Below are positions 415 to 35,460 of a stretch of 64,000 nt of DNA, piece after piece (position 1 is the stretch's first letter; every line of letters starts with the position of its first letter). Below the pieces are notes generated by a model. The model did no database searches. It was not told where the DNA came from and saw only the letters and a program-made list of their open reading frames with translations. The DNA is from Ruminococcus sp. HUN007 (lineage in GTDB: Bacteria; Bacillota; Clostridia; Oscillospirales; Ruminococcaceae). The translations under genes and the position numbers were made by a program. The stretch lies in NCBI RefSeq assembly GCF_000712055.1, contig NZ_JOOA01000002.1:1-64000 (forward strand), read 5' to 3'.

Positions 415-432
415 GGTTTGCCTAAGCTAACC
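415..432 (+). promoter_or_regulatory. Putative metal-regulator operator, site 1
   Basis: GGTTTGCCTAAGCTAACC is an 18-bp imperfect inverted repeat with half sites GGTT(A/T)G and CTAACC six bases apart. The same pattern precedes the fec, feo and flavin-reductase genes in this window. Its position at the expected transcription start suggests repression. Confidence 0.6.
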
Positions 433-474
433 AAACAAATTTTTAAAAATATATCGATACCAGGAGGTAACCAG

Positions 475-1119
475 ATGACTTCTAAAGAATATAAAGACCT
501 TTCAGTGAAAGAGTTTACAAAAGCTGCCGAGGTCTATGAATCTGACAATGCCGGTGTCTATAAAATGTGCAAAGAAGATTATCCTGATGTGCTGGCAGAG
601 CTTGAAAAAGAACCATTTACAGATCTTCTTGACTGTGGCTGCGGAACAGGGCCTATGCTTACGCTGCTTCATAAGAAATATCCTGATAAGCATTATACAG
701 GAATTGACCTGACACCGAAAATGATCGAGGTCGCAAAAAGAAAGAATATGAGCGGTGTAAAACTGATCGTTGGTGACTGTGAGAATCTGCCGTTTGATGA
801 TAATTCTTTTGATGTGGTGATCTGCTGTGAGAGCTTTCACCACTATCCGAATCCGCAGAACTTCTTCAACAGCGTTTACCGCGTTCTTCGACCAAACGGA
901 AGACTTATCCTCCGTGATATGACAATGAACTCTGCTGCTGTGCGATGGTTCTGTAATACTTTCGAAATGCCGATCGCACATATGATCGGTAAAGGAGATG
1001 TCCGTATTTATGGAAGTAAAGATATCAGAAAACTTTCTGAAAATGCTGGGCTTCATATGGAAGCCTTTGAAAAGAGAGGATTCTGTCGCCTCCACTGTGT
1101 TGTGAGAAAAGTAAAATAA
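475..1119 (+). CDS. Class I SAM-dependent methyltransferase
   Basis: A 214-residue Methyltransf_11-type enzyme. SAM-binding motif I is LDCGCGTGPM, followed by the acidic strand end GIDLTPKM and the post-I motif GDCENLPFDDNSFDVV; CCESFHHYP is the motif IV region. The start at 475 has AGGAGG eight bases upstream; an in-frame upstream ATG at 394 would lie before the -10 box and is rejected. It is the first gene of a rightward cluster with two more methyltransferases, two hydrolases and ABC transporters, behind a putative iron operator. The substrate is unknown. The company suggests a small molecule or lipid handled with the transporters. Confidence 0.85.
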   Translation: MTSKEYKDLSVKEFTKAAEVYESDNAGVYKMCKEDYPDVLAELEKEPFTDLLDCGCGTGPMLTLLHKKYPDKHYTGIDLTPKMIEVAKRKNMSGVKLIVGDCENLPFDDNSFDVVICCESFHHYPNPQNFFNSVYRVLRPNGRLILRDMTMNSAAVRWFCNTFEMPIAHMIGKGDVRIYGSKDIRKLSENAGLHMEAFEKRGFCRLHCVVRKVK

Positions 1120-1198
1120 AAAGGAAATAAGATGTTTGATAAAAGACTGACAGATCTGTGTCATGAAAGTATATCATAAAACAGAAAAGAGCGTTAAT

Positions 1199-2194
1199 AT
1201 GAAATTTGATAAGCAGGATAAAGTTGTTATAGCACCTGATGCGATGAACAATCCGCTTTATAAACTTACAAAGGCTATAGTGAAGGCTGCAAAGATAAAG
1301 GACAACCTTGTTGGCTCAAAAGAAGAAGTACTGGCAAAAGCTGCGAAAATGAATGCGAAGAACCGCAGCTTTTTCATGCCTGAAGACAGCAAAGCTCATT
1401 ACACCGACCATTTGATTCAGGGAAGGTTTCATTGCCTTGAAGTTGATATTGATAAAGCGCGTAGAAAGAATGCTGTGCTTTTTGTATTCGGCGGAGGAAT
1501 GATACTTGGTTCCGACAATGGTGATGTGGGACTTTCAAGGAAAATCGCAGAAACTGTTAATGCTGATGTGTGGTTTCCGTATTATCCTCTTTGTCATGAA
1601 CACGATATGCTTGAGAATGTGCAGATGTTATATGAGTGCTATACTAAAATGCTGTCTTTCTACAAGCCTGAAAATATCGTATTTCTTGGATTTTCATCCG
1701 GCGGAGCACTTATGCTTGACCTTATCACATACATAAATGAACTGAACGACAACGGCAGCAGTGTTCCAATGCCGGGAATGCTGATACCGTTATCTCCGGG
1801 CAGCGTACCTGTTACTGATGCGGAAAAAGCAGCGATAAAGAAACTCGACAAAATAGATATCATGATCCCGGCCAGCTATATGTATACCGCACGTGAAATC
1901 ATGTGTCATGGCAGAGATATTCCTGATAAATATCTTGCAACAGCTCATGGAGATTTTAGAAATGCTCCGTTTACGCATTTTTATTACGGCAGTTCCGAAA
2001 CACTGTTTGCTTTTGCGCCGAGTTATGCGGAGAGCTACAGAAAAGCCGGTGCCAGGTGCATGATCCATGTAGGAAAAGGAATGCATCACTGCTATGCACT
2101 TCAGTATTTTATTCCTGGGTGTAAACCTGCGTTTAATGAGATTATGATGATCATAAAAAAATATTTCAGAAAAAGAGGAAAAGATAATGGATAA
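1199..2194 (+). CDS. Alpha/beta hydrolase, HSL-like esterase family
   Basis: About 331 residues from the ATG at 1199; an ATG at 1163 is a possible alternative, and neither has a strong ribosome site. The oxyanion-hole loop is FGGGMILG and the nucleophile elbow GFSSGG gives Ser166, as in the hormone-sensitive-lipase fold. The histidine is probably in KGMHHCYA. The acid region reads YGSSETLF, so Glu may replace the usual Asp. It overlaps the next gene by eight bases, so they are co-transcribed. A second, unrelated hydrolase lies at 5080. The substrate is unknown. Confidence 0.75.
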   Translation: MKFDKQDKVVIAPDAMNNPLYKLTKAIVKAAKIKDNLVGSKEEVLAKAAKMNAKNRSFFMPEDSKAHYTDHLIQGRFHCLEVDIDKARRKNAVLFVFGGGMILGSDNGDVGLSRKIAETVNADVWFPYYPLCHEHDMLENVQMLYECYTKMLSFYKPENIVFLGFSSGGALMLDLITYINELNDNGSSVPMPGMLIPLSPGSVPVTDAEKAAIKKLDKIDIMIPASYMYTAREIMCHGRDIPDKYLATAHGDFRNAPFTHFYYGSSETLFAFAPSYAESYRKAGARCMIHVGKGMHHCYALQYFIPGCKPAFNEIMMIIKKYFRKRGKDNG

Positions 2195-2759
2195 TAAATG
2201 GAACAAAAAGAACGCTTTATGGATGGTGCTTTATGTTATCCTGTATGTTGTAATGACGGTTATAGTATGCGTACTTGGATCGGTCCATCCGTTTTTCTTT
2301 GTTTGCTATCAGATCACTGCGGGATTGCTTGTAACCGGTGTAGCAGCAAAAGCGTTTGATAAAGTCAGATCACCCGGAGCTGCATGCTGTCTGTCACTTG
2401 GAATGATCCTGACGTTCCTTGCAATGCAGGATGCGAATATGTGGCATTGTCTTCCTGTAGTTATCATTGCAGTACTTGCAGAAGTTGTACGTCTTCTGTT
2501 TCAGTATAATTCGATAAGTAATATGATCGCTGCGGTCATCATGTCTTTCTCTTCTTTCGGATACTACGGACAGATATGGTTTAACCGTGATTATACATAT
2601 GAATGTGCAGTAGAGGAGATGCCGGCGGGATATGCAGAATCTCTTATGAATCTCAGCCCTGCATGGGCGTTTCCGGTAGTAATTATAATTGGAACAGTAT
2701 TGGCATTTGTAAATTACAACATAACAAAAAAGCTTTTTAAATTTGATTTATACAGATAG
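2187..2759 (+). CDS. Trep_Strep/MptD-family membrane protein, putative ECF S component
   Basis: A 190-residue protein with about five or six hydrophobic segments. The FGYYGQIWF stretch and the following MPAGYAESL are characteristic of the Trep_Strep (MptD-like) family, thought to be substrate-binding components of energy-coupling-factor transporters. The start overlaps the hydrolase stop. No EcfT or EcfA gene is seen in the window, so it would have to use shared energising subunits or the neighbouring ABC proteins. The ligand is unknown. Confidence 0.65.
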   Translation: MDNKWNKKNALWMVLYVILYVVMTVIVCVLGSVHPFFFVCYQITAGLLVTGVAAKAFDKVRSPGAACCLSLGMILTFLAMQDANMWHCLPVVIIAVLAEVVRLLFQYNSISNMIAAVIMSFSSFGYYGQIWFNRDYTYECAVEEMPAGYAESLMNLSPAWAFPVVIIIGTVLAFVNYNITKKLFKFDLYR

Positions 2760-2818
2760 TTGTTGGTTGGCTTGTTAGTATGATAAGGTGACAAGAAGAC
2801 TGAAAGAGGAAAATTAAG

Positions 2819-3046
2819 ATGGCTGTTACTCTATTATTGACATTATGTAATATTATTCTATTGTGCCTTATGATACTGGCAGCAACTGTATTTATGCCGT
2901 ATCGTGGACTTGCGAAGAACTTTCCGGAAACCAAAGGGTGTGCCGGGTGGCAGCAATTCGGATATAACCGAAAGCAGCATCTTAAGCAAAGTATTATTAT
3001 GCTTATATGCTGTGTAGTAATGGCATTTGTATTCGTAAAGATATAG
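2819..3046 (+). CDS. Small two-helix membrane protein, unknown
   Basis: 75 residues with two hydrophobic segments (about 3-25 and 57-74) flanking a basic linker with KGCAGWQQFGYN. A GAGG ribosome site lies ten bases upstream and the next gene begins nine bases after its stop. I do not recognise a family. Tight packing suggests it works with the adjacent membrane protein. Confidence 0.6.
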   Translation: MAVTLLLTLCNIILLCLMILAATVFMPYRGLAKNFPETKGCAGWQQFGYNRKQHLKQSIIMLICCVVMAFVFVKI

Positions 3047-3055
3047 GAGATTCTT

Positions 3056-3562
3056 ATGGTATTTCTTCAATTATGCTTATACTGTCTGCTGTTCACGGCA
3101 ATGGTCAGATATTCTGTTAAAGGCGGTGCGATAAATGGACTTTACTTCTATCCTAAAGCCGTACAGGAAAGGGCATTTGAGATTGGTCTGACTGACAGAG
3201 ATACGGTAAAGAAGAAGCGTAAACGCTTTATGACTGCTTTCTATATAGTTATGCTGACAGCGCTGGTACTTATCATTGCAATATGGAATCGTGTCAGCAA
3301 CTTTAAAGATGCTTATTTGCAGGCGCTACTCTTTCTCTAAGTCATGAACATCTATGACGGTATTATCATAGACAAGCTATGGGTAGGTCACAGTAAATTC
3401 TGGATTTTGAAAGGCACAGAGGATATTCCTTTCGTGCAGACATGGCTGCAGGTCCTGAAAAAGCGTTCATTTCTTGCTCTTATATGGGTGATTGGATCGC
3501 TGATCGTTGCGGGAATTGTGGTGTTGCTTGCGATGATTTGTGCGATTTCAGATACAGTTTGA
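3056..3562 (+). pseudogene. Membrane protein interrupted by one in-frame stop
   Basis: One reading frame of about 168 residues has a TAA at 3338-3340. The first part (94 residues) ends in YLQALLFL. The second part carries the strongly charged segment DKLWVGHSKFW and a final membrane helix. Both halves are in the same frame, so this is a nonsense change or two separately started peptides (ATG at 3344 without a good ribosome site). A second, truncated copy of the C-terminal half is at 21371-21546, with only scattered substitutions. The family is unknown. Confidence 0.65.
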
Positions 3563-3577
3563 AATGAGGAAAAATGA

Positions 3578-4303
3578 ATGAAAACATTTAATGACATCGG
3601 AATCGAAAATAATCTTGACTGGAAGCGTATCCGCAAACTGTTTATTATTGGACTGATTGGCGGCTGTATGACCTTTGTTGGTGACTGGATTCTTGGCTAT
3701 GGCATGTACGATGAAAGTCTGACTGGACTGGAAATGAAACTGTCACAGTATCTTGTTTTATCGGATACTCAGCTGTTCTGGTCGGCTTTTCTTGGACTGA
3801 TTGGTATTTCGCTGGAGGGGCTCTGTTATTTCGGTATCTACAGGCTGATTGCTTCAGGCAGCGAAAAACATGCTCATGTATTCAGAAGCGGTGTATTCGG
3901 CTATATGCTGTTTGCAGCATGTGGTGTTCATGTTCCGTGCCTTTCGACAGTTTATTTCTATAACCACATGATGCAGGAAAGTCCGGATGCAGCATATGCT
4001 CTTACCGTAAAATTCGCATCGTTCTTTCTGCTGCCTGCTATGATATTGTTCCTGATATTCTTCTTTATCATGAGCGCTGCTCAGATCAGTGCATTTGCAA
4101 AAGGATTTACACCATATCCAAAATGGTGCTGGATATTCTCAATGGCAGTTGGTATGGCTGTGACAATGTTGTTGAAATTGGCGGGTAATCACGCCGTTGT
4201 AAACGGTCTGACCGCTGCGTGGATCAGTATCGGTAACATCTGGATGTTCGGTGGCTTGCTGCTGACTATGAAGTTTGCTCAGAGGGAAAAAGCTGAATTG
4301 TAA
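3578..4303 (+). CDS. Multipass membrane protein, DUF6796-like
   Basis: 241 residues with about seven hydrophobic segments. The first carries GGCMTFVGDWILGYG, a glycine/aspartate pattern I associate with DUF6796-type proteins. GAGGAAAA precedes the start. No catalytic motif is visible. It sits between the interrupted membrane gene and a methyltransferase, same strand. Assignment rests on overall look, so treat it as a conserved membrane protein of unknown role. Confidence 0.6.
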   Translation: MKTFNDIGIENNLDWKRIRKLFIIGLIGGCMTFVGDWILGYGMYDESLTGLEMKLSQYLVLSDTQLFWSAFLGLIGISLEGLCYFGIYRLIASGSEKHAHVFRSGVFGYMLFAACGVHVPCLSTVYFYNHMMQESPDAAYALTVKFASFFLLPAMILFLIFFFIMSAAQISAFAKGFTPYPKWCWIFSMAVGMAVTMLLKLAGNHAVVNGLTAAWISIGNIWMFGGLLLTMKFAQREKAEL

Positions 4304-4399
4304 AACTGGAAAATACGCATATAAATTCACAAAAATGATGAACAAATCGGCAAAAGTGATCCTGCAGATAATCATATATTTCAGAAAAGGAGAAAGATA

Positions 4400-4996: not shown

Positions 4997-5079
4997 TCAT
5001 ATCGCCATTTAAGGTTGCATAAAGCGGTAATATTGAGTAAGCATCAATGCTGCTTATCATAATGAGAGGTGATGAATTT

Positions 5080-5937: not shown

Positions 5938-5992
5938 GCAGTATAAGATATTCGGAATACTTGATTACAAACTGATAAAAGGAGCATAAAAC

Positions 5993-6778: not shown

Positions 6779-6788
6779 GAATAAATGA

Positions 6789-16117: not shown

Positions 16118-16205
16118 TTGGAATAGATATATATGATACTGGAATTATCACGATCTTTTCCGGGAACGCTTTATAATAGTTAATCCAGTTTATTTTTAAA
16201 TCAAT

Positions 16206-16223
16206 AGTTAGTGCTAACTAACG
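16206..16223 (+). promoter_or_regulatory. Putative metal-regulator operator, site 2
   Basis: AGTTAGTGCTAACTAACG fits the 18-bp pattern with halves GTTAGT/ACTAAC around four bases. A second, overlapping palindrome (TAGTTAG-TG-CTAACTA) is also perfect. It lies 27 bases before the ATG of the FeoB-associated/HMA gene. Confidence 0.6.
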
Positions 16224-16249: not shown

Positions 16250-16606
16250 ATGGAAAATATAATTATTATTGCTGTACTGGCCGTTGTTCTGTTTTTTGCA
16301 TTGAAAGGTACAGTTAAACATTTAAAAGGGGAAGGCGCTTGCTGCGGTGGCGCAAAAGCCATAAAAGAACCGGATAAAAAGCTGTCAGGGCCGGTTATAT
16401 ATAAAAAAGTGTTCAGGATCGATGGTATGCACTGTCAGAGCTGTGCCAACCGTGTGAAGCGTGCTATCAACGGGATCGACGGAGTATCAGCAAAGCTCGA
16501 TCTCATCAAGAGAGAGGCTGTTGTAAAGTACGAAAAAGAAGTAGTCGATGAAGTTCTGGTGAAGGCAATTGAAAATATCGGATACAAAGTCGTTGGTATT
16601 CAGTAA
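16250..16606 (+). CDS. FeoB-associated Cys-rich segment fused to a heavy-metal-associated domain
   Basis: 118 residues. An N-terminal membrane helix (about 3-22) is followed by a Cys-rich stretch with ACCGG, as in FeoB-associated Cys-rich membrane proteins. Residues ~48-118 form an HMA domain with the metal-binding motif GMHCQSC and a terminal YKVVGIQ strand. AGAGGACG precedes the start. The iron-type operator upstream and the fec operon downstream suggest transition-metal handling at the membrane. feoB itself is 14 kb away. Fusion of the two parts is notable. Confidence 0.8.
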   Translation: MENIIIIAVLAVVLFFALKGTVKHLKGEGACCGGAKAIKEPDKKLSGPVIYKKVFRIDGMHCQSCANRVKRAINGIDGVSAKLDLIKREAVVKYEKEVVDEVLVKAIENIGYKVVGIQ

Positions 16607-16939: not shown

Positions 16940-16968
16940 TTGACAAAAACAATTTCATCTGATATAAT
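16940..16968 (+). promoter_or_regulatory. Consensus promoter of the fec operon
   Basis: TTGACA (16940-16945), 17 bases, TATAAT (16963-16968). Operator site 3 begins 9 bases after the -10 box. Confidence 0.85.
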
Positions 16969-16976: not shown

Positions 16977-16994
16977 AGTTAGTATCAGCTAACT
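16977..16994 (+). promoter_or_regulatory. Putative metal-regulator operator, site 3
   Basis: AGTTAGTATCAGCTAACT has perfect halves AGTTAG/CTAACT six bases apart and covers the expected transcription start of the siderophore importer operon. Confidence 0.7.
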
Positions 16995-17041: not shown

Positions 17042-17071
17042 ATGACAAGCATAAGAAATAATAGTTATTAT
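17042..17071 (+). promoter_or_regulatory. Second, weaker fec promoter
   Basis: ATGACA (17042-17047), 18 bases, TATTAT (17066-17071), again followed 9 bases later by an operator copy. The repeated architecture is the main support. Confidence 0.5.
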
Positions 17072-17080: not shown

Positions 17081-17098
17081 GGTTAGCTATCACTAATG
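17081..17098 (+). promoter_or_regulatory. Putative metal-regulator operator, site 4
   Basis: GGTTAGCTATCACTAATG matches the 18-bp pattern with a degenerate right half. It lies 29 bases before the start of the binding-protein gene. Confidence 0.55.
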
Positions 17099-17127: not shown

Positions 17128-18226
17128 ATGAACAAGAAAAAATTATCAACGATAATATCATTCCTTATGATTTCAGCAATGTTTGCGGGTTGCGGAAAAA
17201 ACTGATGTCACATCAGATACTAATGATATGATCTCATCAACTTCATCAGCAGCAAATGAAACCTCTGACGAAGAAATAACAGCAGGTGAAGAAATTTCTG
17301 AAAACGAAACTGAAGGCGAGTTTCCAATTACGGTAAAGCATGCGCTCGGTACCGTAGTGATCAAAGAAAAGCCGGAACGTGTAGCGACGATTGCATGGTG
17401 CAATCACGATGTCGCACTTGCGCTCGGAGTAGCTCCTGTAGGTGTATCGAGAATGAATTTTGCTGTTGACGAGACAGGTGTATTTCCTTGGGCATGGGAC
17501 AAATTTCATGAACTAGGTGTTGACAATCCTGTTGTATTCGATGATGTTGACGGCTGGGATTATGAAGCCATAGCAGATGTTCAGCCTGACGTTATACTCG
17601 CGGGCTATTCGGGCATAACAGAGGAAGAATATGAACGACTCTCCGAGATAGCTCCGGTAATTGCATATCCGAATGGACCATGGGTATCTACATGGCGTGA
17701 ACAGACTCTTATAAATGCCGAGGGATTAGGTAAAAAATCCGAAGCAGAACAGCTTATCAAGGATACAGAAAAATTGATATCCGATAAGCTTACTCAGTAT
17801 CCTGATGTTGTTGATAAGACAGTGGCTTTCTGCTGGTTCAGTGCTGACGATCTTGGAACGTTCTACATTTATACAAACAACGACCCTCGAGCATCTTATC
17901 TTGGAGATCTCGGTATGGTCATGCCAGAAAGCGTTAAGGAAGCTATTGATGATCCAACCGCTTTCTCAATTACTGTAAGCGCAGAAAACGCAGACAAATT
18001 TAACGATGTCGATATGATAATAACCTACGGCGATGATGAGCTTCTTAAGGCTATGCAGTCTGATCCGAGAATAAGTGCTATACCTGCGATAGCAAATGGT
18101 GCAGTTGTTCTTCTCGACAGCAACGATTGCGTAGCAGCAAGCAGTACACCATCTATTCTTTCCATCCCATATATAATCGATGACTATCTGAATATGCTCG
18201 ATGCGGCTGCTAAAAAGGTGAAATGA
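17128..18226 (+). pseudogene. Siderophore-binding lipoprotein of an iron ABC importer, frameshifted in the signal region
   Basis: The ATG at 17128 (GAAAGGA upstream) encodes a lipoprotein signal ending in MFAGC (Cys22). An A6 run at 17196-17201 then throws the frame to a TGA; with A5 it reads GCGKTDVTSD and continues through a complete ~365-residue substrate-binding protein to 18226. The mature part shows the FecB/FepB pattern: HALGTVVIKEKPERVATI, QPDVILAGYSG, and the C-terminal AIANGAVVLLDS. It precedes two permeases and an ATPase. If the extra A is real, only internal initiation could make this protein and it would lack export. Confidence 0.8.
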
Positions 18227-18227
18227 T

Positions 18228-19226
18228 ATGAAAAAAGGCAGGATAACTGTCGGTTTTATTATCGTCCTTGCTGGACTGTTTTTCTGTGCCGCGTTATCTC
18301 TTGCGGCAGGTGCAAGATTTGTACCATTAGGCGATGTTGTATCGGCTTTAACTGACAAAAGCATGGAAAGTTTCGATGCAGTAGTCGTCCGTGAAAGGAT
18401 TCCTCGTACTATATTTGGTATACTGATAGGCTGTTCTCTTGGAATATCCGGAACACTGATGCAGTCGATAACCCGAAATCCCATAGCAGACCCGAGTGTG
18501 CTGGGAGTCAATTCCGGAGCGGCATTTTTCGTTGTATGCGGTATTGCTTTTTTCGGTGTCTCGTCTGCTTACGAATTCATATTCTTCGCTATGGCAGGGG
18601 CTGCTGTAAGCGCACTTTTGGTATATGGTATAGGATCAATAGGGTATGGTGGAGCAACTCCGCTGAAACTCGTACTTGCGGGTTCGGCGAGCGCTACTGC
18701 ACTTTCCTCACTCACAAGCATAGTTATGATGCCGCGTGACAGAGTCATGGATACTTTCAGGTTCTGGCAAATAGGAAGTGTGAGCGGTGCGACTTACGAA
18801 AAAATTTGGGCGTTCGCTCCTTTCTTTGGTATAGGAGCCGTAGTATCAATAATACTTTCTCCGCAGCTTAACATCCTGGCACTTGGTGATGAAGCGGCTG
18901 CAGGACTTGGAGCAAAGCATGCTAAGATAAGGCTTATCGGTGCTATATCGGGAGTGCTTCTATGCGGTGCTTCTACGGCAGTTGCCGGACCGATAGGATT
19001 TGTAGGACTCATGGTTCCGCATGTTCTGAGGCTCATCTTCGGAAACGATATGCGGGTACTGATACCAATGAGCGCTTTGGGCGGTGCAGTACTGCTTACT
19101 CTTTCAGACGTTGCCGGTCGCATTATAGGCAGTCCCGGCGAGACGGAGGTTGGGATAGTCACTGCCGTGATAGGAGGACCAGCGTTTGTTATCATAGCAA
19201 TGAAAGCAAAGGTGAAAGCAATATGA
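18228..19226 (+). CDS. FecCD-family iron-siderophore permease 1
   Basis: 332 residues and about nine or ten membrane helices. FecCD motifs are clear: RIPRTIFGILIGCSLGISG near residue 60, QSITRNPIADPSVLGVNSGA near 80, and the cytoplasmic coupling loop GDEAAAGLGAKHAK near 225. It begins one base after the binding-protein stop and shares ATGA with the next permease, so the operon is translationally coupled. Confidence 0.9.
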   Translation: MKKGRITVGFIIVLAGLFFCAALSLAAGARFVPLGDVVSALTDKSMESFDAVVVRERIPRTIFGILIGCSLGISGTLMQSITRNPIADPSVLGVNSGAAFFVVCGIAFFGVSSAYEFIFFAMAGAAVSALLVYGIGSIGYGGATPLKLVLAGSASATALSSLTSIVMMPRDRVMDTFRFWQIGSVSGATYEKIWAFAPFFGIGAVVSIILSPQLNILALGDEAAAGLGAKHAKIRLIGAISGVLLCGASTAVAGPIGFVGLMVPHVLRLIFGNDMRVLIPMSALGGAVLLTLSDVAGRIIGSPGETEVGIVTAVIGGPAFVIIAMKAKVKAI

Positions 19227-20251
19227 GTAATACATCTCTTTTGGTGAGAAACGGAATCAGAAACAGACATAGACGATGCGCTGTGTCTATGCTTATCCTT
19301 GCGTTGATTGCAGTTGTGCTTGCTGCACTGTGTCTATATTTTGGAAACACGATATATCCTCCGGATGTGATAATTAAAGTGATTTTGGGCGAAGAGATAA
19401 AGGGAGCTTCCTATGCTGTAAACAGTGTGAGACTTCCGAGAATGCTTGCGGGAGTATTTGCCGGTATTGCTTTCGGTACTGGCGGGTATGTGTTTCAGAC
19501 AATGCTCAGGAATCATCTTGCGAGCCCTGACATGATAGGCATATCCTCAGGATCGGGAGCGGCTGCTGTCATCTGCATACTTGTTTTCAAGATAGGTGGT
19601 ACTACTGCTTCGGTGATCTCGGTAGCGGGAGGCCTTGCAGCGACTATGCTGATATTTCTTCTCGCATCGGCAGGCGGTTTCTCAAACGGAAGAATGATAC
19701 TGATAGGAATAGGCATACAAGCTGTCCTTCGTGCTGTAATTTCCTATGTTATTCAAAAAGCCTCAACTTATGATGTTCCGGCTGCAATGCGATGGCTTAC
19801 AGGAAGTCTGAACGGATCTCAGATGAAGAATATACCTGTTATGGGTTCAGTCATAATTACAGCCTTTATAGTGATAGCACTTAGCGAAAAACATCTGAAA
19901 ATGTTAGAGCTTGGTGACAGCTGCGCTATTGCTCTAGGAGTGAGGATAAACCTTATACGAGGGATGATGTCCGTGTGCGGTGTATTAATGATCGCATTCG
20001 CGATAGCAGTTACGGGTCCCATTGCAAGCGTAGCTTTCCTTTCCGGCCCGATATCCTCGAAGATAACAGGGAAGAATAACTCGAATGCAGGAGCAGCTGC
20101 ACTTTTTGGAGTAGTGCTGATACTCGCAAGTGATCTTGCCGGACAATTTGCACTTGGTACACGATTTCCTGTTGGTATCGTGACGGGGCTTCTTGGTGCT
20201 CCATATCTTCTTTATCTTCTGATCACAATGAATCGCAGCAATTCCGTATGA
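19223..20251 (+). CDS. FecCD-family iron-siderophore permease 2
   Basis: 342 residues from the ATG at 19223, overlapping the previous stop by four bases. Motifs: SVRLPRMLAGVFAGIAFG, QTMLRNHLASPDMIGISSGSG and the coupling loop LGDSCAIALGVRIN. The N terminus is basic (VRNGIRNRHRR) before the first helix. It pairs with the 18228 protein. Confidence 0.9.
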   Translation: MSNTSLLVRNGIRNRHRRCAVSMLILALIAVVLAALCLYFGNTIYPPDVIIKVILGEEIKGASYAVNSVRLPRMLAGVFAGIAFGTGGYVFQTMLRNHLASPDMIGISSGSGAAAVICILVFKIGGTTASVISVAGGLAATMLIFLLASAGGFSNGRMILIGIGIQAVLRAVISYVIQKASTYDVPAAMRWLTGSLNGSQMKNIPVMGSVIITAFIVIALSEKHLKMLELGDSCAIALGVRINLIRGMMSVCGVLMIAFAIAVTGPIASVAFLSGPISSKITGKNNSNAGAAALFGVVLILASDLAGQFALGTRFPVGIVTGLLGAPYLLYLLITMNRSNSV

Positions 20252-20264
20252 AAGGGTGATGATA

Positions 20265-21065
20265 ATGAAAAGCAACTTTGGCTCTAAAGAACTTTACACA
20301 GGATATGATAAGAAGACTATTCTTGAAGATGTATCGATTGCTGTGCCTGACGGAAAAATAAGCGTCATCCTGGGAAGTAACGGCTGCGGAAAATCTACTC
20401 TGCTTAAAACCATGGCTCGTCTGCTTGTCCCGGAAAGGGGAGCTGTATTGCTGAATGGAACGGATATCACCAGGATACCGACGAAAAGACTTGCTCAGAT
20501 GATAGGCCTTCTTCCGCAGTCACCTCTCGTTCCAGACGGAATAACAGTTGCAGACCTTGTTTCACGCGGGAGATTTCCATACCAGTCTATGCTGAAAGGT
20601 CTCAGCAGCGAGGATCATGAAAAAGTCGCTGAGGCTCTTGATTTACTTGGAATATCCGCTCTTGCGGACAGAAACGTTGATGAGCTTTCAGGTGGTCAGC
20701 GTCAGCGTGTATGGATAGCTATGGCGCTTGCACAGGACACGGATATACTACTCCTTGATGAGCCTACTACATATCTTGATGTCGCTTATCAGGTTGAAAT
20801 ACTCGATACGCTGGCGGAACTAAACAGGAAAAAGAATATCACTATCGTAATGGTACTGCATGACATTAATCTTTCCGCAAGATATGCTGACTATATCTTT
20901 GCTATGAAAAACGGGAGACTAATTTGTCAGGGAAAGCCAGATGAAGTGATTACCGCTGAAAACATAAAGGCTATATACGACCTTGAAAGTATAATTATCC
21001 GCGATCCTTTTTCAGGAACTCCTATGTCAGTACCGAAAGGTCGTCATTGCGCGATAGTGAGCTGA
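20265..21065 (+). CDS. Iron-siderophore ABC ATPase (FecE/FepC type)
   Basis: 266 residues from the ATG at 20265, chosen because AAAGGG lies eight bases upstream; ATG at 20259 is possible. Walker A LGSNGCGKSTLL, Q-loop LLPQSP, signature ELSGGQRQRVWIAMAL, Walker B DILLLDEPTTYLD and H-loop VLHDINLSARYAD. The TTYLD form is characteristic of FepC/BtuD-type importers. It is the last gene of the operon. Confidence 0.9.
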   Translation: MKSNFGSKELYTGYDKKTILEDVSIAVPDGKISVILGSNGCGKSTLLKTMARLLVPERGAVLLNGTDITRIPTKRLAQMIGLLPQSPLVPDGITVADLVSRGRFPYQSMLKGLSSEDHEKVAEALDLLGISALADRNVDELSGGQRQRVWIAMALAQDTDILLLDEPTTYLDVAYQVEILDTLAELNRKKNITIVMVLHDINLSARYADYIFAMKNGRLICQGKPDEVITAENIKAIYDLESIIIRDPFSGTPMSVPKGRHCAIVS

Positions 21066-23372: not shown

Positions 23373-25956
23373 TTGAAGAAAAGTAAACTATTTGCGGTAA
23401 TGTGCTCATCTGTGCTGACAGCTGCTATATTTACGGACTGTATTGTTCCTTTGAATGATCGTAGCTCAGTTCGAGCAGAAGAAACATCATCTGTAGCAAT
23501 TGCCTATGAAGATGATTACTGTTCAGGTGATATCAACGGAGACGGCGTAATAAACATATTCGACTTCAGCCGTCTTAATCGTTATCTTGAAGGTAATCTC
23601 GAATTTGATGCTGACCAGCTTAAAGCAGCTGATTTCAATTATGACAGATCAGTTGATGAGGGCGATCTTGCGGACATGTCCGGCTACATTACCATGTACT
23701 CAGAAATGCCTGTCAATTACCACCGCAGAAGACTTATCTTAAATGCAAAGAACTTCTTCCTCAAATACGGTGAAACAACGGACATAGAATTAAGTATCAA
23801 AATTCCTGATGACTGGGAGAAAAATGATATTACCGTAACAGGTGACGGCGAGAAGATTGCAGTTATTCCATTCAGTTCACTTACTGAAGGCGAAAAAAGT
23901 GAGCGTGATGGTTACAGCTACACTGAATACACAGTATCAGTCCCGGTACCTGATCTTGGTGATAACGATACAAGAGGATTTTCAGTAGATCTTACTGTTC
24001 AGATGAACGGGCATGAAAGCTATCCGGTTATGCTCAACCGTGCTGTTAAAGATGCGAAAGAAAGAATCGAAAAATCCGGCGAACTGATTGGAAATGTCTC
24101 CGAGTATGCCAATAGTTTACCTGAAGGCAGTTCAAAAGAAGAAATTCTTTCCGATATGAAAAAATGGATCGAAGCAAATCCAGATCTTGAAATCACAAGT
24201 ACTTCTTCTGATATAATTCATTTTAAAACTTCTTATGGAATAAACAGTTTCTTTGAGATAGAGGAAGAATCTGAATCAAATGAAAATGGTGTAGAATCAT
24301 TGAATACAAATGAAACGGTAATTCCTGAAAGTCCGGTTGAAAATATTGCCACTGTCAGTGCTTTCAATGCAAATAATCTATATAAAACTACTGATTATGA
24401 TGATGATTATGATGAATTGCTTAATATATATCATAATACTCCAAAAGAGATTAATTCATCGTGTAATAACCTTACTCTTCTCGATCCTGATGTACTTTTG
24501 CATGCTCCTTGCGATAACAATTATGTAATAAGTGGTTCATTGGAGGATATGAGAGAAATAGGGGCCGATCTGGCTAATAACATCCTTAAATGGGGTCAGT
24601 TAGATTCTCACTTTGACGAATTCGTAGGTAATCAGCACAGCAACTTTTCAGATATAGAGAAATGGAATCAGTACGGAACAGTTTTTCTGGTTTACACATG
24701 CAAATAATATGAAGGTTAATGGCTGGGATAGAACATATTACGAAATGTATGAGTGCGATGCAAAGTATGATATCATAAACAAAGCGCTCAGTCTTCGTGA
24801 TTCACTAAATGGTATATCACAATTTGATATAGACAACAACTCATATATGCCGGATTTGTCTATAGGTGTTACATATGTGTTTGAGAAACATTCAGGTTGT
24901 TATAAACTTGCGGTTGGATCAGGTGCTGTGATGCAGGTTCTTTCTCAGACTGTCTTTCCGAATACTATTTTCTATTTTATTGCGTGTAAAGGCGCTTCTG
25001 ACCATATCTTTAATAAGTTTTTACTTGATCATGGTGCTGCCGGTGTCATTGGTTTTGACAAGACATCAAGAAGTGCTATGTCAATTCCTATTGCAAAGAA
25101 AACTTTTGAGCATGCTTTTGATGAATTACCAGGTTCTAACTGGAAAACTTTACAGGATGCACATTTAGAAGCAAACATTAAGGCCAATCTTAATCCTGTA
25201 AACGCAATTGAGACCGTATTTGCAAATGTAAGGTGTGCGCTTGATTATTCATCAACTGCAGATTACTACGCTGAAAAATATTTCTATTATCGTGGATACG
25301 GTACTATTTCCGCAAATATATGTGTACATGATGAAGACGATAATTTAATTGTCAGAGATCCGGATGATACACGATATAGAGTTGAATTTTATCGTTACAG
25401 TAATAATGGTTTATTACATGGATACGGGGGTGTTTTTAATGGCTGTAATAACGGAATTACAGATTTTTCATATACTGTTGATTATGGCTCTTATTTAATT
25501 CAGTTTGTTGATGCATATAATGACGCAGAAACGTTTATTCGAACAGATTTAACAGATAGACGACTGGATCTTGGACAAATTATAATTATAGAAAAGACTG
25601 ATCTTTTTAAGTTCGTTTATAACAGTTACTTGAATTTATACGGAAAGGCTCCTTCGGATTCAGAAGTGAATAAGTGGAAACAAGCACTTAAGGATAAAAG
25701 CATTAATGCTGCATCGATGGTAAAGACTTTTTATACTGATAATTTAAATGCTATAGTCGATATGGATAATCAATCATGGGCACTCAAGGCATATAACGCT
25801 TTTGTAGGAAAAGCACCAGATGATACGAAACGTAAAGAACTTGAGATAATTGCTTTATCAGGTCAGTCTCATGAGAACATTGCAAAGTATATTATAGAAA
25901 GCGACGATTTTAAAAACAGATGTAATGAACTGAATATTTTACCAGGAGAGTGGTAA
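23373..25956 (+). pseudogene. Secreted dockerin, caspase-like and DUF4214 protein, split by a +1 frameshift
   Basis: A TTG start (AGGAGG five bases upstream) opens a frame that stops at 24707 and resumes one base shifted to 25956. One T fewer in the T5 run at 24682-24686 joins them as VFWFTHANNMKVNGWD. The full product is ~860 residues. Parts: signal peptide (1-32); type I dockerin with DINGDGVINIFDFSRLNRYL and DFNYDRSVDEGDL (~50-108); a caspase-fold core with His in FTHAN and Cys in FYFIACKGASD; and C-terminal DUF4214 repeats (LNLYGKAPSDSEVNKW, FVGKAPDDTKRKEL). The enzyme was probably cellulosome- or surface-docked. Confidence 0.7.
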
Positions 25957-27159: not shown

Positions 27160-27162
27160 CTA

Positions 27163-30171: not shown

Positions 30172-30194
30172 GTATTAGGAGGACGCTTGTTTGA

Positions 30195-30455
30195 TTATCT
30201 GATAACTTCCCACATTTCACCCATGTTCTGAGCGGCGTTCTGAGGCATGCAGCCTTTGCATTCGGCTGCACTGCATTTTGATCCGCCTCCGCAGTTACAT
30301 GTGTGTGCGGAAAGAGAGACTTTTCTGATCATGCCGATGTTTTCAAGGTAGGAAAGCATTCTGCTGATATCGGCTGTATCTGTACCGAGTTCATCTGCAA
30401 GCATTTCCAGTGTGCGTGAACGGCCGTCTTTTAAAAGTTCAAGAAGTTTTTCCAT
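30195..30455 (-). CDS. feoC: FeoC-like winged-helix protein with Cys cluster
   Basis: 86 residues from the ATG at 30455 (a GTG at 30464 overlapping the feoB stop is an alternative). Residues 1-50 form a winged helix (EMLADELGTDTADISRMLSYLE). A cysteine-rich wing follows: CNCGGGSKCSAAECKGC, suited to an Fe-S cluster as in FeoC proteins. It is the last gene of feoABC and probably senses iron or oxygen state at FeoB. Confidence 0.75.
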   Translation of the reverse strand: MEKLLELLKDGRSRTLEMLADELGTDTADISRMLSYLENIGMIRKVSLSAHTCNCGGGSKCSAAECKGCMPQNAAQNMGEMWEVIR

Positions 30456-30460
30456 GGCTG

Positions 30461-32476
30461 TCACCAGATGAGTAAACCGACATGATATGCTATAAATCCG
30501 ATAAGCAGAGCACTTAACGTGTAGTACGCAGCGATCTTAGCGGTCCATTTGACTGAATGGATCTCCTGATAGGTAGCGGCAAGAGCAACGATACACGGCA
30601 TGTTGAATGTAATGGCGAAAATAAATGCAAGAGCTTCAGGACGTGATACATTAGCGAGAAGGAGCTCATTAAGGTTTGCAGCAACTGCACCTCCGCTCAT
30701 CGCTTCATTAAAGCCCTGTGCATAGGAAGTTCCGGAATAGAGAGCGCTGATTACACCAATTGCGCCTTCCTTGCCGACAGAAGAAGCAACAAATGCAATG
30801 AAGAGCTGCCACGGCATACCCAGAAGCTTAGTGAACGGTTCAATAGCGATACCTAATTTATACAGCAGAGTTGAGTCGTATGAATCGCTTCCGCTGTAGC
30901 TTAACAGCCAGAATATACCGCACACAAGAAGAACAACCTTTGTTACACGGAAGAACGTATCTTTTGTACGTCCGAAAACATATCTGAAAAGAGCTCCCCA
31001 TTTTGGTTTGTGGTACGGTGGAAGCTCCATTATCATACCGAATTTGTCTTCAGACTTTACAAGATTTCTTCCGAATACTTTAGCTGTTATCCACATGTGA
31101 AGTATCATTACAAGAAGTATAGCAATGATAACGACAGGAGCTGCTGAACCGAAGAATATGCTTGAGAGCATCGGAATAATAGCCCAGGTCGCACCGCACG
31201 GAACTGCCCAGGTAAGAGCAACTGTAAGAACTTTCTGTCCCCAGTTGTCAATTACTCTTGAACCGGCAGCACCGCCCATTGTACAGCCGAAACTTACAAG
31301 GAACGGCATTACGGACTTTCCCTGAAGGCCAAGTTTGCTCATTGTATTGTCAAATACGTATGAAATACGTGCCATAACGCCGACTTCTTCAAGAAGTCCG
31401 AAAACAAGTGTAACGCCGAAAACGAATCCAAGCATTTTAATAACGAATGACATGGACTGAAGAATTACGTTGCAGAGTATCTGATTTATAAAATCCGGGT
31501 AGCCGGCTCCGGCAAGCATTTCTGAAACTGCAACTTTAAGCGCGTCAACGAGTGAGCCGAGCCCCATTACCGGAAGTGCCGGAATGAAAGAGCCGACAAG
31601 GCCAAGAATAACGGTGAGTACAACGGCAGGTTTTCCCCAGAAGCGGTGAGTGTATATTCGGTCGAGCTTTCCGAGAGTCGCTCTGGTTTTCGTTACATTC
31701 ACAGCATCCTTCAGAATGTCGTCGATCCATCTGAATTTGCTTTCACCGGCTGCTATGGCACCTTTGGTGTCGCTGTATCGGGATATTCTGTTAAAATCCT
31801 CGTTTGAAAGCTTTTCCCGGAGTTTTGCCGTTATTACCTTATCATTTTCAAGAGTCTTGACAGTGAGCCACATCGGAGAATACCCCTCGATAGTGTTATC
31901 TTCAAGACTGCTTTTTATTTCGTCGTATCCGTTGAGTGACTCATATTCCTTTTCGAGAGCGGATACATTGAGTTTTGTTTTTTCTTTTACAGCACGTTCA
32001 AAAACATCATAGAATTTTTCATATGAGTTTTTGTCGTTAGCTGAAATAAGTGCAACAGGAATGCCGAGTTTCTTTTCAATGGCAGAAACATTGATGTATT
32101 TTCCCTGATCCTTTGCGACGTCAGCCATGTTGAGGATAAGAAAACACGGAACATCCATGCCGGCAAAATCCGCGAGCATGAAAAGACTTCTTTCAAGCTG
32201 GGAACTGTCTGCCAGAATACATACTACATCAGCTTTTCCGGAGGCAATGAAATCGCGGGTGATAACTTCTTCGTCTGAGTTTGCTGACATACTGTAGGAG
32301 CCCGGCAGATCAGCTATGCTGTATGATTTTCCGTTGTGTGTGAAAGTACCTTCTTTCTTTTCAACGGTTTTACCCGGCCAGTTTCCTACGTGCTGATGAA
32401 GTCCTGTAAGAGCGTTGAACAGTGTTGATTTACCTGAATTAGGCTGACCGAGAAGAGCTATTGTTGCTGCACTCAT
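30461..32476 (-). CDS. feoB: Ferrous iron transporter FeoB
   Basis: 671 residues, GGAGGTGAG upstream. An N-terminal G domain has G1 GQPNSGKST (from residue 10), G3 DLPGSYS, G4 NMAD; a helical GDI region follows. The membrane part has two Gate halves, for example EVGVMARISYVFDN and GCTMGGAAGSR, with GKEGAIGV near the end. It moves Fe2+ inward. The start overlaps feoA by ATGA. It belongs to the operator-controlled iron genes. Confidence 0.95.
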   Translation of the reverse strand: MSAATIALLGQPNSGKSTLFNALTGLHQHVGNWPGKTVEKKEGTFTHNGKSYSIADLPGSYSMSANSDEEVITRDFIASGKADVVCILADSSQLERSLFMLADFAGMDVPCFLILNMADVAKDQGKYINVSAIEKKLGIPVALISANDKNSYEKFYDVFERAVKEKTKLNVSALEKEYESLNGYDEIKSSLEDNTIEGYSPMWLTVKTLENDKVITAKLREKLSNEDFNRISRYSDTKGAIAAGESKFRWIDDILKDAVNVTKTRATLGKLDRIYTHRFWGKPAVVLTVILGLVGSFIPALPVMGLGSLVDALKVAVSEMLAGAGYPDFINQILCNVILQSMSFVIKMLGFVFGVTLVFGLLEEVGVMARISYVFDNTMSKLGLQGKSVMPFLVSFGCTMGGAAGSRVIDNWGQKVLTVALTWAVPCGATWAIIPMLSSIFFGSAAPVVIIAILLVMILHMWITAKVFGRNLVKSEDKFGMIMELPPYHKPKWGALFRYVFGRTKDTFFRVTKVVLLVCGIFWLLSYSGSDSYDSTLLYKLGIAIEPFTKLLGMPWQLFIAFVASSVGKEGAIGVISALYSGTSYAQGFNEAMSGGAVAANLNELLLANVSRPEALAFIFAITFNMPCIVALAATYQEIHSVKWTAKIAAYYTLSALLIGFIAYHVGLLIW

Positions 32477-32700
32477 GCTCTCACCTCCGATACTTCGATA
32501 CCTTCACATTCTTTTCTGTTAAGAGCGATCATTGTATCGCGTGCATAGATAAGCACGGGTCTGTTCCTGTCATTTTTTATAACACTCAGACTGGAGCCGG
32601 GCGTAAGACCTATTGATGTTATTCTTCCGATAAATCTCGGGTCTCCGTCGAGGCCTGTTACGACAGCCTCGGAATTTTCTTTGAGTTCTTTGAGTTTCAT
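32473..32700 (-). CDS. feoA: FeoA, SH3-like partner of FeoB
   Basis: 75 residues with the FeoA core RFIGRITSIGLTPGSSLSVI and the terminal strand GRD-like ARDTMIALNRKECEGIEV. CCGGAGGT precedes the start. First gene of the minus-strand feoABC operon, behind a consensus promoter and operator. Confidence 0.9.
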   Translation of the reverse strand: MKLKELKENSEAVVTGLDGDPRFIGRITSIGLTPGSSLSVIKNDRNRPVLIYARDTMIALNRKECEGIEVSEVRA

Positions 32701-32758
32701 TGCGTTACCTCCGGGAAATGAGATTCTTGTTTATTCGAAGTATGCGTAGAGTAACTGC

Positions 32759-32776
32759 GGTTATCCTAAACTAACC
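32759..32776 (-). promoter_or_regulatory. Putative metal-regulator operator, site 5 (feoA)
   Basis: On the minus strand GGTTAGTTTAGGATAACC, halves GGTTAG/ATAACC. It begins 8 bases after the feoA -10 box, covering the likely transcription start. Confidence 0.7.
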
Positions 32777-32783
32777 GTATAGC

Positions 32784-32812
32784 ATTATACCACTTAAATG
32801 TATTTATGTCAA
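32784..32812 (-). promoter_or_regulatory. Consensus feoA promoter
   Basis: Minus-strand TTGACA (32812-32807), 17 bases, TATAAT (32789-32784). Back to back with the promoter at 32824. Confidence 0.85.
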
Positions 32813-32823
32813 TACGCTATCTG

Positions 32824-32852
32824 TTGACAATATGAAGATAAAGTGCTATTAT
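32824..32852 (+). promoter_or_regulatory. Promoter of the DUF6110/P-type ATPase operon
   Basis: TTGACA (32824-32829), 17 bases, TATTAT (32847-32852); its -35 lies only 11 bases from the divergent feoA -35. Confidence 0.8.
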
Positions 32853-32859
32853 TAATAAA

Positions 32860-32877
32860 GGTTAACAAAGGCTAATC
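32860..32877 (+). promoter_or_regulatory. Putative metal-regulator operator, site 6
   Basis: GGTTAACAAAGGCTAATC fits the 18-bp pattern and starts 8 bases after the -10 box. Confidence 0.6.
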
Positions 32878-32964
32878 AGATTATAGACATTTGCGCTCAG
32901 ATCGCCTGTTAATCGAATTAGTCCCTGCATACCTGACTATAAAATATATAAGGAGAGAATAATT

Positions 32965-33204
32965 ATGAACAAATTATTCAAGAACGAAAAATTTATGTAC
33001 ATGCTTGCAGGCGCTGCTGCAGTTGTAGTAGGCGGAAAGATCATAAAGGCTGACTGTACAAGAAAGGCTGCAGTAAACAGCATCGCAAAGGGCATGAAGA
33101 TCCGTGACGATGCAAAGTGTGCTTTACAGAACATGAAGGATGAAGCCGAAGACATCTGCTACGATGCAAAGCTTAAAGCTGAAAGTGAAGCAGAAGAAGC
33201 GTAA
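32965..33204 (+). CDS. DUF6110-like small protein
   Basis: 79 residues: basic start, one Gly/Ala-rich hydrophobic segment (about 11-27), then a charged helix with CTRKAAVNSIAKGMKIRDDAKCAL. AAGGAGAG upstream. The pattern matches small DUF6110 proteins that I associate with P1B ATPases; the ATPase starts five bases after its stop. Possibly a membrane-bound helper or metal shuttle (two Cys besides a third near the end). Confidence 0.65.
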   Translation: MNKLFKNEKFMYMLAGAAAVVVGGKIIKADCTRKAAVNSIAKGMKIRDDAKCALQNMKDEAEDICYDAKLKAESEAEEA

Positions 33205-33209
33205 GAGTC

Positions 33210-35396
33210 ATGAAGTTTAAGATCGTATATGACAAACCCGGCAGAATACGCTTCAGGTGCGGCGAATACGCTTTTGAACGCGAAAAAGAAACCGCTGTTT
33301 TTCTGATTCTGAAAAACTGTGATTTTGTAAATGACGCAGAAGTACACAGTGCGAACGGAAGCATCCTTGTTTACTATGCTGAAGGTCACAGAGACGATGT
33401 TGTTTCAGTAGTCAGAAACATAAAAAAAGAAGATCTTACCGAAGAAACATCCGGTGAATTCCAGATAAAGCAGATAGACAGCGATTTTTCTGACAGGATC
33501 ATACTAACAGTCCTCAGGCGCTTTGTTACCCGTGCCATTCTCCCTGATCCTGTACGCAGGATCATGACTTTTATCAAAGGCATAGGATATGTCTGTAAAG
33601 GGATCGCAGCCCTGTTTAACAGCGGCATGACAGTTGAAGTTCTTGACGGTGCGTCCATCGGAACATGCCTTATCCAGAAAAACTATTCAACTGCCGGAAC
33701 AATAATGTTCTTGCTGAATCTTTCCTCAATTATGGAGGAATATACTCACGCCAGGACAAAAGCGGTATTAAGGGAAAGCCTTATTGTAAATACTGATGAA
33801 GTATGGCTGGTTCAGGGCGATACCGACGTAAAGATAACAATGGCTGAACTTAAAACCGATGACGTAGTAAGAATACGTGCCGGAAGCATGATCTATGCTG
33901 ACGGTGATGTCGTTGACGGTGAGGCATATATAAACGAAGCAACAATGACAGGTGAAAGTCTGCCGGTGCACAAGAAAAAGGGAAGTTCAGTATTTGCCGG
34001 AACTCTTGTGGAGGAAGGATCTGTTGCTGTCAGAGTAAGAAATCTTTCTTCAGACAGCCGCATAAACAGGATCGTTGCACTTATAGACGAATCAGAGAAT
34101 CTGAAAGCCGGAGTACAGAGCCGTGCCGAAAGGCTTGCTGACAGTGTGGTTCCGTTCAGTTTTATAGCTTTCGGACTTGTTTATCTGTTTACAGGCAATG
34201 TTACCAAGGCGGTTTCAGTACTGATGGTCGATTATTCATGTGCTATAAAACTTTCAGCACCAATTGCGGTCATTTCTGCAATAAAGGAAGCTGCGGACCG
34301 CGGTATAACAGTAAAGGGCGGTAAATATCTTGAAGAATTTGCTGCAGCGGATACTATAGTTTTCGATAAAACAGGCACGCTTACCAATGCAAAGCCCGAA
34401 CTTGCTGAAGTTATCGCATTCAGGCCGTACAATAAAACAGAAGTCCTTCGTATTGCCGCCTGCCTTGAGGAGCACTATCCGCACAGTGTTGCAAGAGCTA
34501 TTGTCAACGGGGCTGCGGAAAGAAATCTTATTCACGAGGAAGAGCATGCTGAAGTTGAGTATATTGTTGCTCATGGAGTGGCAACGCAGTACCGCGGAAA
34601 GCGTGCGATAATCGGAAGCAGGCATTTTGTCGAGGAAGATGAGCATGTGGAATTTTCTGCTGCTCAGTCTAAAGCAATTGAAAAAGCATCTGACAATGGT
34701 TCACTTATTTATCTTGCGATAGGCGGTAAGCTTGCCGGAATTCTCGTGATAAATGATCCTCCGCGTGAAAATGCGGCTGAGGTAGTAAAAAATCTGAAGA
34801 ATGCCGGAATTGAAAGAATAGTAATGCTTACCGGTGACAGCCGCAGAATAGCTGAAAACATAGCTGAGACACTTGAGATCACTGATGTTATAGCAGAGGT
34901 TCTTCCTGAAGAAAAGTTTGCAGAGATCGAAAAACTTAAGGCTGAGGGCCGCCGTGTAATAATGGTCGGCGACGGCATCAATGATGCACCTGCGCTTGCT
35001 GCTGCAAATGTTTCCGTAGCGATGAACGACGCATCAGAAATAGCTCAGGAAACTGCGGATATTACCATAAGGCATTCTGACCTGAATGAACTTGTAACTG
35101 TACGAAGACTCAGTGAAAAACTGATGAAGCGTATAAGTGACAGTTATCACTTTATAATAACGTTCAACACGGCACTGTTAGCCGGAGGTATCTTTGGGTT
35201 CCTTGCGCCGGCGACATCAGCATTCCTGCACAATTCATCGACACTTCTGATATGTATGAAGTCCATGACTGCGTTGGAGGAGAAAAAGCAAAAAAAATTT
35301 AAAAAAATTATAAAAATCCTCTTGACAACGTATTTAATTTATGATATCATACTCTATGGTTACTTTGGGGTAACTGAGAGTCATTCATTTTTGTGA
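33210..35396 (+). CDS. P1B-type metal-transporting ATPase with SCA in place of CPC
   Basis: 728 residues. An N-terminal HMA-like fold without CxxC (1-75) is followed by helices, actuator TGES (247-250), the ion-path helix with DYSCAIKLSAP (Cys344) instead of CPC/CPH, phosphorylation motif DKTGTLT (Asp386), the HP-type YPHSVA, and hinge VGDGINDAP (~586). The altered motif resembles Mn/Fe exporters rather than Cu pumps. It shares an iron-type operator with feo genes, so export of excess iron or manganese is plausible. The last ~30 residues run through the next promoter; one A fewer in the A8 run at 35290-35297 would end it earlier. Confidence 0.8.
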   Translation: MKFKIVYDKPGRIRFRCGEYAFEREKETAVFLILKNCDFVNDAEVHSANGSILVYYAEGHRDDVVSVVRNIKKEDLTEETSGEFQIKQIDSDFSDRIILTVLRRFVTRAILPDPVRRIMTFIKGIGYVCKGIAALFNSGMTVEVLDGASIGTCLIQKNYSTAGTIMFLLNLSSIMEEYTHARTKAVLRESLIVNTDEVWLVQGDTDVKITMAELKTDDVVRIRAGSMIYADGDVVDGEAYINEATMTGESLPVHKKKGSSVFAGTLVEEGSVAVRVRNLSSDSRINRIVALIDESENLKAGVQSRAERLADSVVPFSFIAFGLVYLFTGNVTKAVSVLMVDYSCAIKLSAPIAVISAIKEAADRGITVKGGKYLEEFAAADTIVFDKTGTLTNAKPELAEVIAFRPYNKTEVLRIAACLEEHYPHSVARAIVNGAAERNLIHEEEHAEVEYIVAHGVATQYRGKRAIIGSRHFVEEDEHVEFSAAQSKAIEKASDNGSLIYLAIGGKLAGILVINDPPRENAAEVVKNLKNAGIERIVMLTGDSRRIAENIAETLEITDVIAEVLPEEKFAEIEKLKAEGRRVIMVGDGINDAPALAAANVSVAMNDASEIAQETADITIRHSDLNELVTVRRLSEKLMKRISDSYHFIITFNTALLAGGIFGFLAPATSAFLHNSSTLLICMKSMTALEEKKQKKFKKIIKILLTTYLIYDIILYGYFGVTESHSFL
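35322..35350 (+). promoter_or_regulatory. Promoter of the Tp47/FMN/ApbE genes
   Basis: TTGACA (35322-35327), 17 bases, TATCAT (35345-35350). It lies within the annotated 3' end of the ATPase gene. Confidence 0.7.
35358..35375 (+). promoter_or_regulatory. Putative metal-regulator operator, site 7
   Basis: GGTTACTTTGGGGTAACT, halves GGTTAC/GTAACT, starts 8 bases after the -10 box. The G-for-C exchange is symmetric, keeping the palindrome. Confidence 0.55.
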
Positions 35397-35442
35397 TGAC
35401 AGATCATATTTATATCTGCCATCACTTTTTATTTGCGGTATT

Positions 35443-35460
35443 GGTTAGTTAGTGCTAACA
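35443..35460 (+). promoter_or_regulatory. Putative metal-regulator operator, site 8
   Basis: GGTTAGTTAGTGCTAACA fits the pattern; it lies in the leader 114 bases before the Tp47-like gene. Confidence 0.6.

Follow-up and report, generated by a model that had tools for sequence, protein, structure and literature searches.

Palindromes ahead of iron genes in Ruminococcus sp. HUN007 are predicted operators of an EqbA/MntR-like repressor of the DtxR family

We analysed a window of 64,000 nucleotides from Ruminococcus sp. HUN007 (contig NZ_JOOA01000002.1, positions 1 to 64,000), for which an earlier note had reported eight copies of the palindrome RGTTAG-N6-CTAACY and had proposed that they mark a metal regulon with DtxR-type half-sites and an uncommon half-site spacing. 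A scan of the window finds all eight at the positions that note gave. They are listed here as predicted operators with their mismatches to the consensus, their score and rank with the matrix described below and, where a promoter lies close by, its hexamers, its score out of 12 and the number of bases between the -10 box and the operator.

415..432, strand not applicable: 1 mismatch, score 19.4, rank 2; upstream of the methyltransferase cluster; -35 TTTAAA 377-382, -10 TATAAT 400-405 (10/12), 9 bases
16206..16223, strand not applicable: 1 mismatch, score 13.7, rank 7; gene for the HMA protein 26 bp downstream
16977..16994, strand not applicable: exact (0 mismatches), score 20.9, rank 1; -35 TTGACA 16940-16945, -10 TATAAT 16963-16968 (12/12), 8 bases
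17081..17098, strand not applicable: 2 mismatches, score 14.1, rank 6; the second one before fecBCDE; -10 TATTAT 17066-17071 (10/12), 9 bases
32759..32776, minus strand: 1 mismatch, score 17.2, rank 4; feoAB; -35 TTGACA, -10 TATAAT, minus strand (12/12), 7 bases
32860..32877, plus strand: 2 mismatches, score 15.3, rank 5; operon divergent from feoAB; -35 TTGACA 32824-32829, -10 TATTAT 32847-32852, plus strand (11/12), 7 bases
35358..35375, plus strand: 2 mismatches, score 10.9, rank 8 (weakest); within the 3' end of the ATPase open reading frame (ORF); -35 TTGACA 35322-35327, -10 TATCAT 35345-35350, plus strand (11/12), 7 bases
35443..35460, plus strand: 1 mismatch, score 18.2, rank 3; in the leader ahead of the gene at 35574

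The genes behind these sites are as follows (ABC, ATP-binding cassette).

475..2759, plus strand: methyltransferase, alpha/beta hydrolase and Trep_Strep membrane protein (Pfam), the first genes after the operator at 415
16250..16606, plus strand: HMA-domain protein (Pfam HMA, 6.7e-17; weak FeoB_associated match below the cut-off)
17183..21065, plus strand: fecBCDE-like Fe(III)-siderophore ABC importer (Pfam, NCBIfam)
30461..32700, minus strand: feoA (32473-32700) and feoB (30461-32476) (Pfam)
32965..35396, plus strand: 79-aa protein without a Pfam match (32965-33204) and P-type ATPase (33210-35396)
35574..39683, plus strand: surface protein (Shr-like HID and LPXTG-type matches), FMN_bind/ferric-reductase-like protein and ApbE

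Pfam matches on the window genes comprise FeoA, FeoB, Peripla_BP_2, two FecCD permeases, an ABC ATPase, HMA, a P-type ATPase, FMN_bind, methyltransferases, and ABC plus FtsX. They agree with the gene names in the earlier note, the FeoB_associated and Ferric_reduct matches lying below the cut-off. Its description of six promoters with the palindrome beginning 7-9 bases after the -10 box is also right; the sites at 16206 and 35443 are the two that do not fit. The methyltransferase was translated from 472, with an ATG start at 475 read by eye. Within 17128-18226 the fecB start with its lipobox, read from 17128, is out of frame with the ORF from 17183 that encodes the mature part, reflecting either an assembly error or a broken gene. 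At 35322-35396 the promoter and operator of the run encoding the surface protein and the ferric-reductase-like protein share sequence with the 3' end of the ORF for the P-type ATPase. A Dockerin-domain protein (23373-24707) points to a Ruminococcus relative that bears a cellulosome.

Counted by matches to the consensus alone, sites are only weakly in excess in the window. With up to 2 mismatches there are 11 matches (the eight plus 14144, 16052 and 25124) where 5.36 would be expected, and a count of 11 is reached in 4 of 100 shuffles; across the genome the same search gives 145 sites compared to 211 for a reversed control pattern, which is no excess. The signal is carried by the strong sites: 9 exact sites are found genome-wide and none for the control pattern, and 7 of the 9 fall in C1:7.7-67.7 kb. 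We generated a position weight matrix from 125 sites (at most 1 mismatch to the pattern) in 46 of the 79 loci of other genomes, with L051, a near copy, excluded. Because the pattern of the earlier note served to select the training sites, the matrix ranking is only partly independent of that pattern. The matrix consensus is RGTTAGC-N4-GCTAACY, its information is limited to 18 bp, and at the position inside the half-site C prevails (0.80) and G is almost absent (0.01).

Scored this way, the eight sites are the top eight of the window (20.9 to 10.9), followed by 25124 (9.6) and 16052 (9.5). The number of sites expected per shuffled window at each site's own score ranges from 0 (16977) to 0.43 (35358) in 60 shuffles, and because of the latter value 35358 is insecure by score alone. 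Sites scoring at least 13 number 7 in the 64-kb window and 13 in C1:1-80000, compared to none in a background of 400 kb taken from 20 other stretches of the same genome (19 from contig C2 and 1 from C1). Extra TTAG/CTAA elements lie a few bases away at 16202-16223 and 35443-35460, perhaps as a degenerate overlapping second site; the overlapping candidate at 16202 scores 4.8.

The spacing is highly specific in relatives. Around 80 loci chosen by the regulator protein alone (described below), exact RGTTAG-Nk-CTAACY occurs 68 times at N6, once at N7 and never at any other k from 0 to 14, and with one mismatch allowed the counts are 126 at N6 and 0-7 at other spacings. When the half-site was permuted in 60 ways, counts above 3 arose for two permutations only, both overlapping the true motif. 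A site with at most 1 mismatch is present in 47 of the 80 loci, and 113 of the 126 sites lie outside ORFs longer than 100 aa. The nearest gene is labelled DtxR 67 times in this set, as expected by construction because the loci are centred on the regulator. Beyond these loci, an exact N6 site occurs in 168 of 197 genomes of the order, with 674 sites compared to 62 control matches. We also examined loci chosen independently of the regulator's position: a site scoring at least 13 is found in 16 of 30 best-FeoB loci of the family (15 of 29 without the own genome) compared to 0 of 30 AAA_2 control loci, the two sets totalling 145,968 and 104,053 bases respectively. The motif is thus not equally frequent beside unrelated genes.

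The position of the sites relative to promoters extends beyond the six cases in the window. A promoter of at least 10/12 lies near 84 of 146 sites scoring at least 13; 42 of these 84 sites begin 6-10 bases after the -10 box and 14 lie within the -35/-10 spacer, as counted in a histogram without a random control. For pairs of operators spaced 29-36 bp apart, 13 of 35 have the -10 box of such a promoter (at least 10/12) between both operators, compared to 0.6 % of random places.

The genome encodes one DtxR-family protein, of 127 aa (C2:2051317-2051700), 2.05 Mb from the window sites. A protein search of the genome with it returns one match, and PF01325 has four matches, of which it is the one true family member; the other three were rejected since Pfam assigns them to MarR/GntR. 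Its gene is divergent from a second feoAB (feoA/feoB), whose promoter, TTGACA-17-TATAAT (12/12), bears two operators, the first within the spacer and the second 8 bases past the -10 box. The protein matches PF01325 (Fe_dep_repress, N-terminal; 1.9e-10) and PF02742 (Fe_dep_repr_C; 5.4e-15), both above the cut-off, which places it in the DtxR/MntR family, and Pfam finds in its 127 aa none of the third, SH3-like domain of the three-domain DtxR/IdeR subclass. Its best match in PDB is MntR (E 8.4e-15), with DtxR behind at 4.7e-11. In the alignment it has Met at the place of MntR Asp8 and Cys at that of Glu99, its own Met9 and Cys100, the ligand pair of the regulatory site in DtxR-type Fe(II) sensing. 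Among the 67 readable homologues of 80 (13 were not parsed), 66 have Met plus Cys and one has Asn plus Cys.

EqbA of Streptococcus equi ICESe2 is, like the candidate regulator, a two-domain protein without SH3 domain and with Cys at the metal site; its operator contains GTTAG-ATGTAT-CTAAC and so shares the core GTTAG-N6-CTAAC, it controls a nonribosomal peptide synthetase (NRPS) cluster of thiazoline-siderophore type, and its loss derepresses the iron NRPS (PMC3672683). The EqbA operator differs in being a longer palindrome of 36 bp, with T/A outside and A/T inside the half-sites (PMC3672683). EqbA has Asn where the regulator has Met, and its description places it next to a single NRPS locus of a mobile element, whereas the regulator here would serve dispersed iron genes and occurs across the order. 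MntR of Bacillus subtilis shares with the regulator the two-domain size, the best sequence match in PDB and an operator of 18 bp that its dimer reads as two 9-bp inverted repeats (PMC11275975); unlike in MntR, Met and Cys replace Asp8 and Glu99 and the predicted targets are iron rather than manganese genes. The regulator is nearer to MntR and EqbA than to IdeR, with EqbA compared by its published description.

From the sites, their promoter geometry and their association with the regulator gene and feoB, we infer that the palindromes are operators, each bound by one dimer of the genome's single two-domain EqbA/MntR-like repressor of the DtxR family, which with Fe(II) bound would block iron-gene promoters. 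We give this reading a probability of about 85 %. An Fe(II)-bound dimer would occupy RGTTAGC-N4-GCTAACY either where transcription starts, 6-10 bases downstream of the -10 box, or in the -35/-10 spacer, and would keep RNA polymerase off the promoter. When iron drops, the dimer would release and feoAB, fecBCDE and the ferric-reductase, flavodoxin and siderophore-type genes would be expressed. Fe(II) is the likely, though not certain, metal, given the ligand residues and the iron target genes. Several observations weigh against this reading. No close -10 box was found for 16206 or 35443, where the best hexamer pair (8/12) is 28 and 17 bases off, and the site at 35358 is weak. There is no site with at most 1 mismatch in 33 of the 80 regulator loci, and an exact site is present in 9 of the 15 genomes that have no regulator match at E of 1e-20 or below. 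With the matrix, the EqbA operator as published reaches no more than 9.1. In an alignment of 8 orthologues from the own genus, the Met position holds 2 Met, 3 Asp and 3 Asn, with Cys in all.

One alternative keeps the same repressor but has it respond to manganese, or equally to iron and manganese, in the manner of MntR or TroR. The nearest solved relative is indeed MntR, and the choice of metal may vary because 6 of the 8 genus orthologues carry Asp or Asn as the first ligand. TroR of Treponema denticola, like the regulator, is DtxR-like with an 18-bp dyad near the promoter and is both Mn- and Fe-dependent (PMC2628430); it differs in having an SH3-like domain and in controlling the transporter troABCD. 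EqbA binds its palindrome with Fe2+, Zn2+ or Mn2+, with Mn2+ incompletely (PMC3672683). However, the predicted targets are iron genes (feoAB, fec, flavodoxin and the siderophore-type NRPS), and MntR Glu99 is replaced by Cys in all 67 readable homologues, and Cys there has been linked to Fe2+ response (PMC3672683). We therefore regard manganese sensing as improbable.

Another regulator, of the Fur family or an unknown protein, could bind the motif, with the DtxR-like gene a mere neighbour. The sites found in genomes without a strong regulator match speak for this. The genome, however, contains only one FUR-family gene, which adjoins a ZnuA gene; Fur was rejected as the regulator since that gene is Zur-like by its neighbourhood. 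A regulator match at E of 1e-20 or below is present in 182 of the 197 genomes, and an exact site occurs in 159 of these 182 compared to 9 of the other 15 (Fisher p 0.012). Moreover, the 10 genomes with at least 3 regulator matches average 14.9 sites compared to 2.8 in the other 187; genome size and kinship are uncontrolled in both comparisons. In three genomes, G092, G125 and G186, the regulator matches number 7, 9 and 6 and the exact sites 23, 30 and 18, so that the regulator family seems to expand together with its operators. We consider binding by another protein quite unlikely.

The half-site letters match those of the IdeR box, and a classical DtxR/IdeR mode of binding with a new, uncommon spacing was what the earlier note had in mind. 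The 19-bp IdeR box in fact consists of two interleaved TTAG-N6-CTAA sites, one per dimer: on TTAGGTTAG-S-CTAACCTAA (TTAGGTTAGSCTAACCTAA) one IdeR dimer binds repeats 1 and 3 and the other repeats 2 and 4, a single dimer binds a designed half-operator with an apparent KD of 78 nM, and the consensus is redefined in that study as TTAGGNNNNCCTAA, 14 bp long (PMC8464063). Written out, TTAGGNNNNCCTAA is TTAG-N6-CTAA, with a spacing equal to that of the window palindromes. The boxes of Escherichia coli MntR and of streptococcal SloR/ScaR look similar in spacing. The contrast drawn earlier arose because the inner halves of two interleaved sites were compared with the halves of a single site. Since one IdeR dimer spans TTAG-N6-CTAA, MntR reads 18 bp and the EqbA core has N6, six bases are an ordinary spacing for the DtxR family; a distinct binding mode was rejected, the geometry being identical to that of a single IdeR dimer. 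The system here shares with DtxR/IdeR the TTAG/CTAA halves, the 10-bp pitch of one dimer and an iron regulon, but the regulator has two domains and no SH3 domain, the operator would hold a single dimer, the inner base is C where the IdeR consensus has G, and paired operators lie 29-36 bp apart whereas DtxR/IdeR dimers are interleaved by 5 bp. The one-base form RGTTAG-N1-CTAACY, for its part, occurs once each in 9 of the 197 genomes and not at all in the own genome or the 80 loci. A new-spacing explanation is accordingly very unlikely. What holds of the earlier proposal is the metal regulon with a DtxR-type half-site, with iron indicated by gene content; its suggestion of a different regulator holds as regards a two-domain protein outside the IdeR type and fails as regards the family, which is still DtxR. 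Lastly, chance palindromes in AT-rich promoters, which the counts at up to 2 mismatches might allow, are refuted for the set as a whole by the spacing specificity in other genomes, the clean 400-kb background and the FeoB loci, while single weak sites such as 35358 may be chance.

Elsewhere in the genome, strong sites precede ABC plus FtsX pairs, an AraC plus ABC exporter, a P-type ATPase, DUF2325/DUF3793/flavodoxin genes followed by ZIP, and a run of NRPS genes that includes one for a thiazolinyl imine reductase-like protein. The NRPS locus (L021-L022, G000:C1:12-36 kb) encodes TubC_N, condensation, AMP-binding, methyltransferase, PP-binding and thioesterase domains together with an Irp3-like thiazolinyl imine reductase, and its predicted products resemble those of yersiniabactin/equibactin-type siderophore synthesis. 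Siderophores of this type are rare among anaerobes (PMC6814731). Comparison of the NRPS region with a plasmid collection gave no match. The genome's top-scoring site (25.0) lies ahead of genes for a malic enzyme and an AdhE-like bifunctional dehydrogenase (L023:2212-6185), and fermentation may thus be under iron control. Behind another site (L024:3941-7646) are an LCM methyltransferase, Trep_Strep, CbiQ and a double ABC ATPase (energy-coupling factor, ECF, transporter); the pairing of methyltransferase and Trep_Strep is common to this locus and the cluster at 415. Sites at C1:59614, C2:3249564 and C1:881865 precede genes without a clear iron role.

Taken together, the comparisons suggest a real and widespread iron-type regulon of an EqbA/MntR-like repressor of the DtxR family; no prior description of it in these bacteria was found in the literature searched, which left out most subscription journals. 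We lean towards a broader view in which, throughout the order of Ruminococcus relatives and kin, a two-domain DtxR-type protein with Met and Cys would replace Fur as the master regulator of iron, acting through single-dimer operators that often clamp a promoter twice, in the spacer and at the start. In this anaerobe the regulon would extend to the malic enzyme and AdhE of fermentation, to transporters of the ABC/FtsX and ECF kinds and to a cluster resembling those for thiazoline siderophores. The notion of an exotic spacing is corrected, and the predicted content of the regulon yields directly testable predictions on siderophore-type and fermentation genes. For an order that abounds in the gut and the rumen, an operator consensus, RGTTAGC-N4-GCTAACY, and a specific candidate for the regulator of iron genes are now available.

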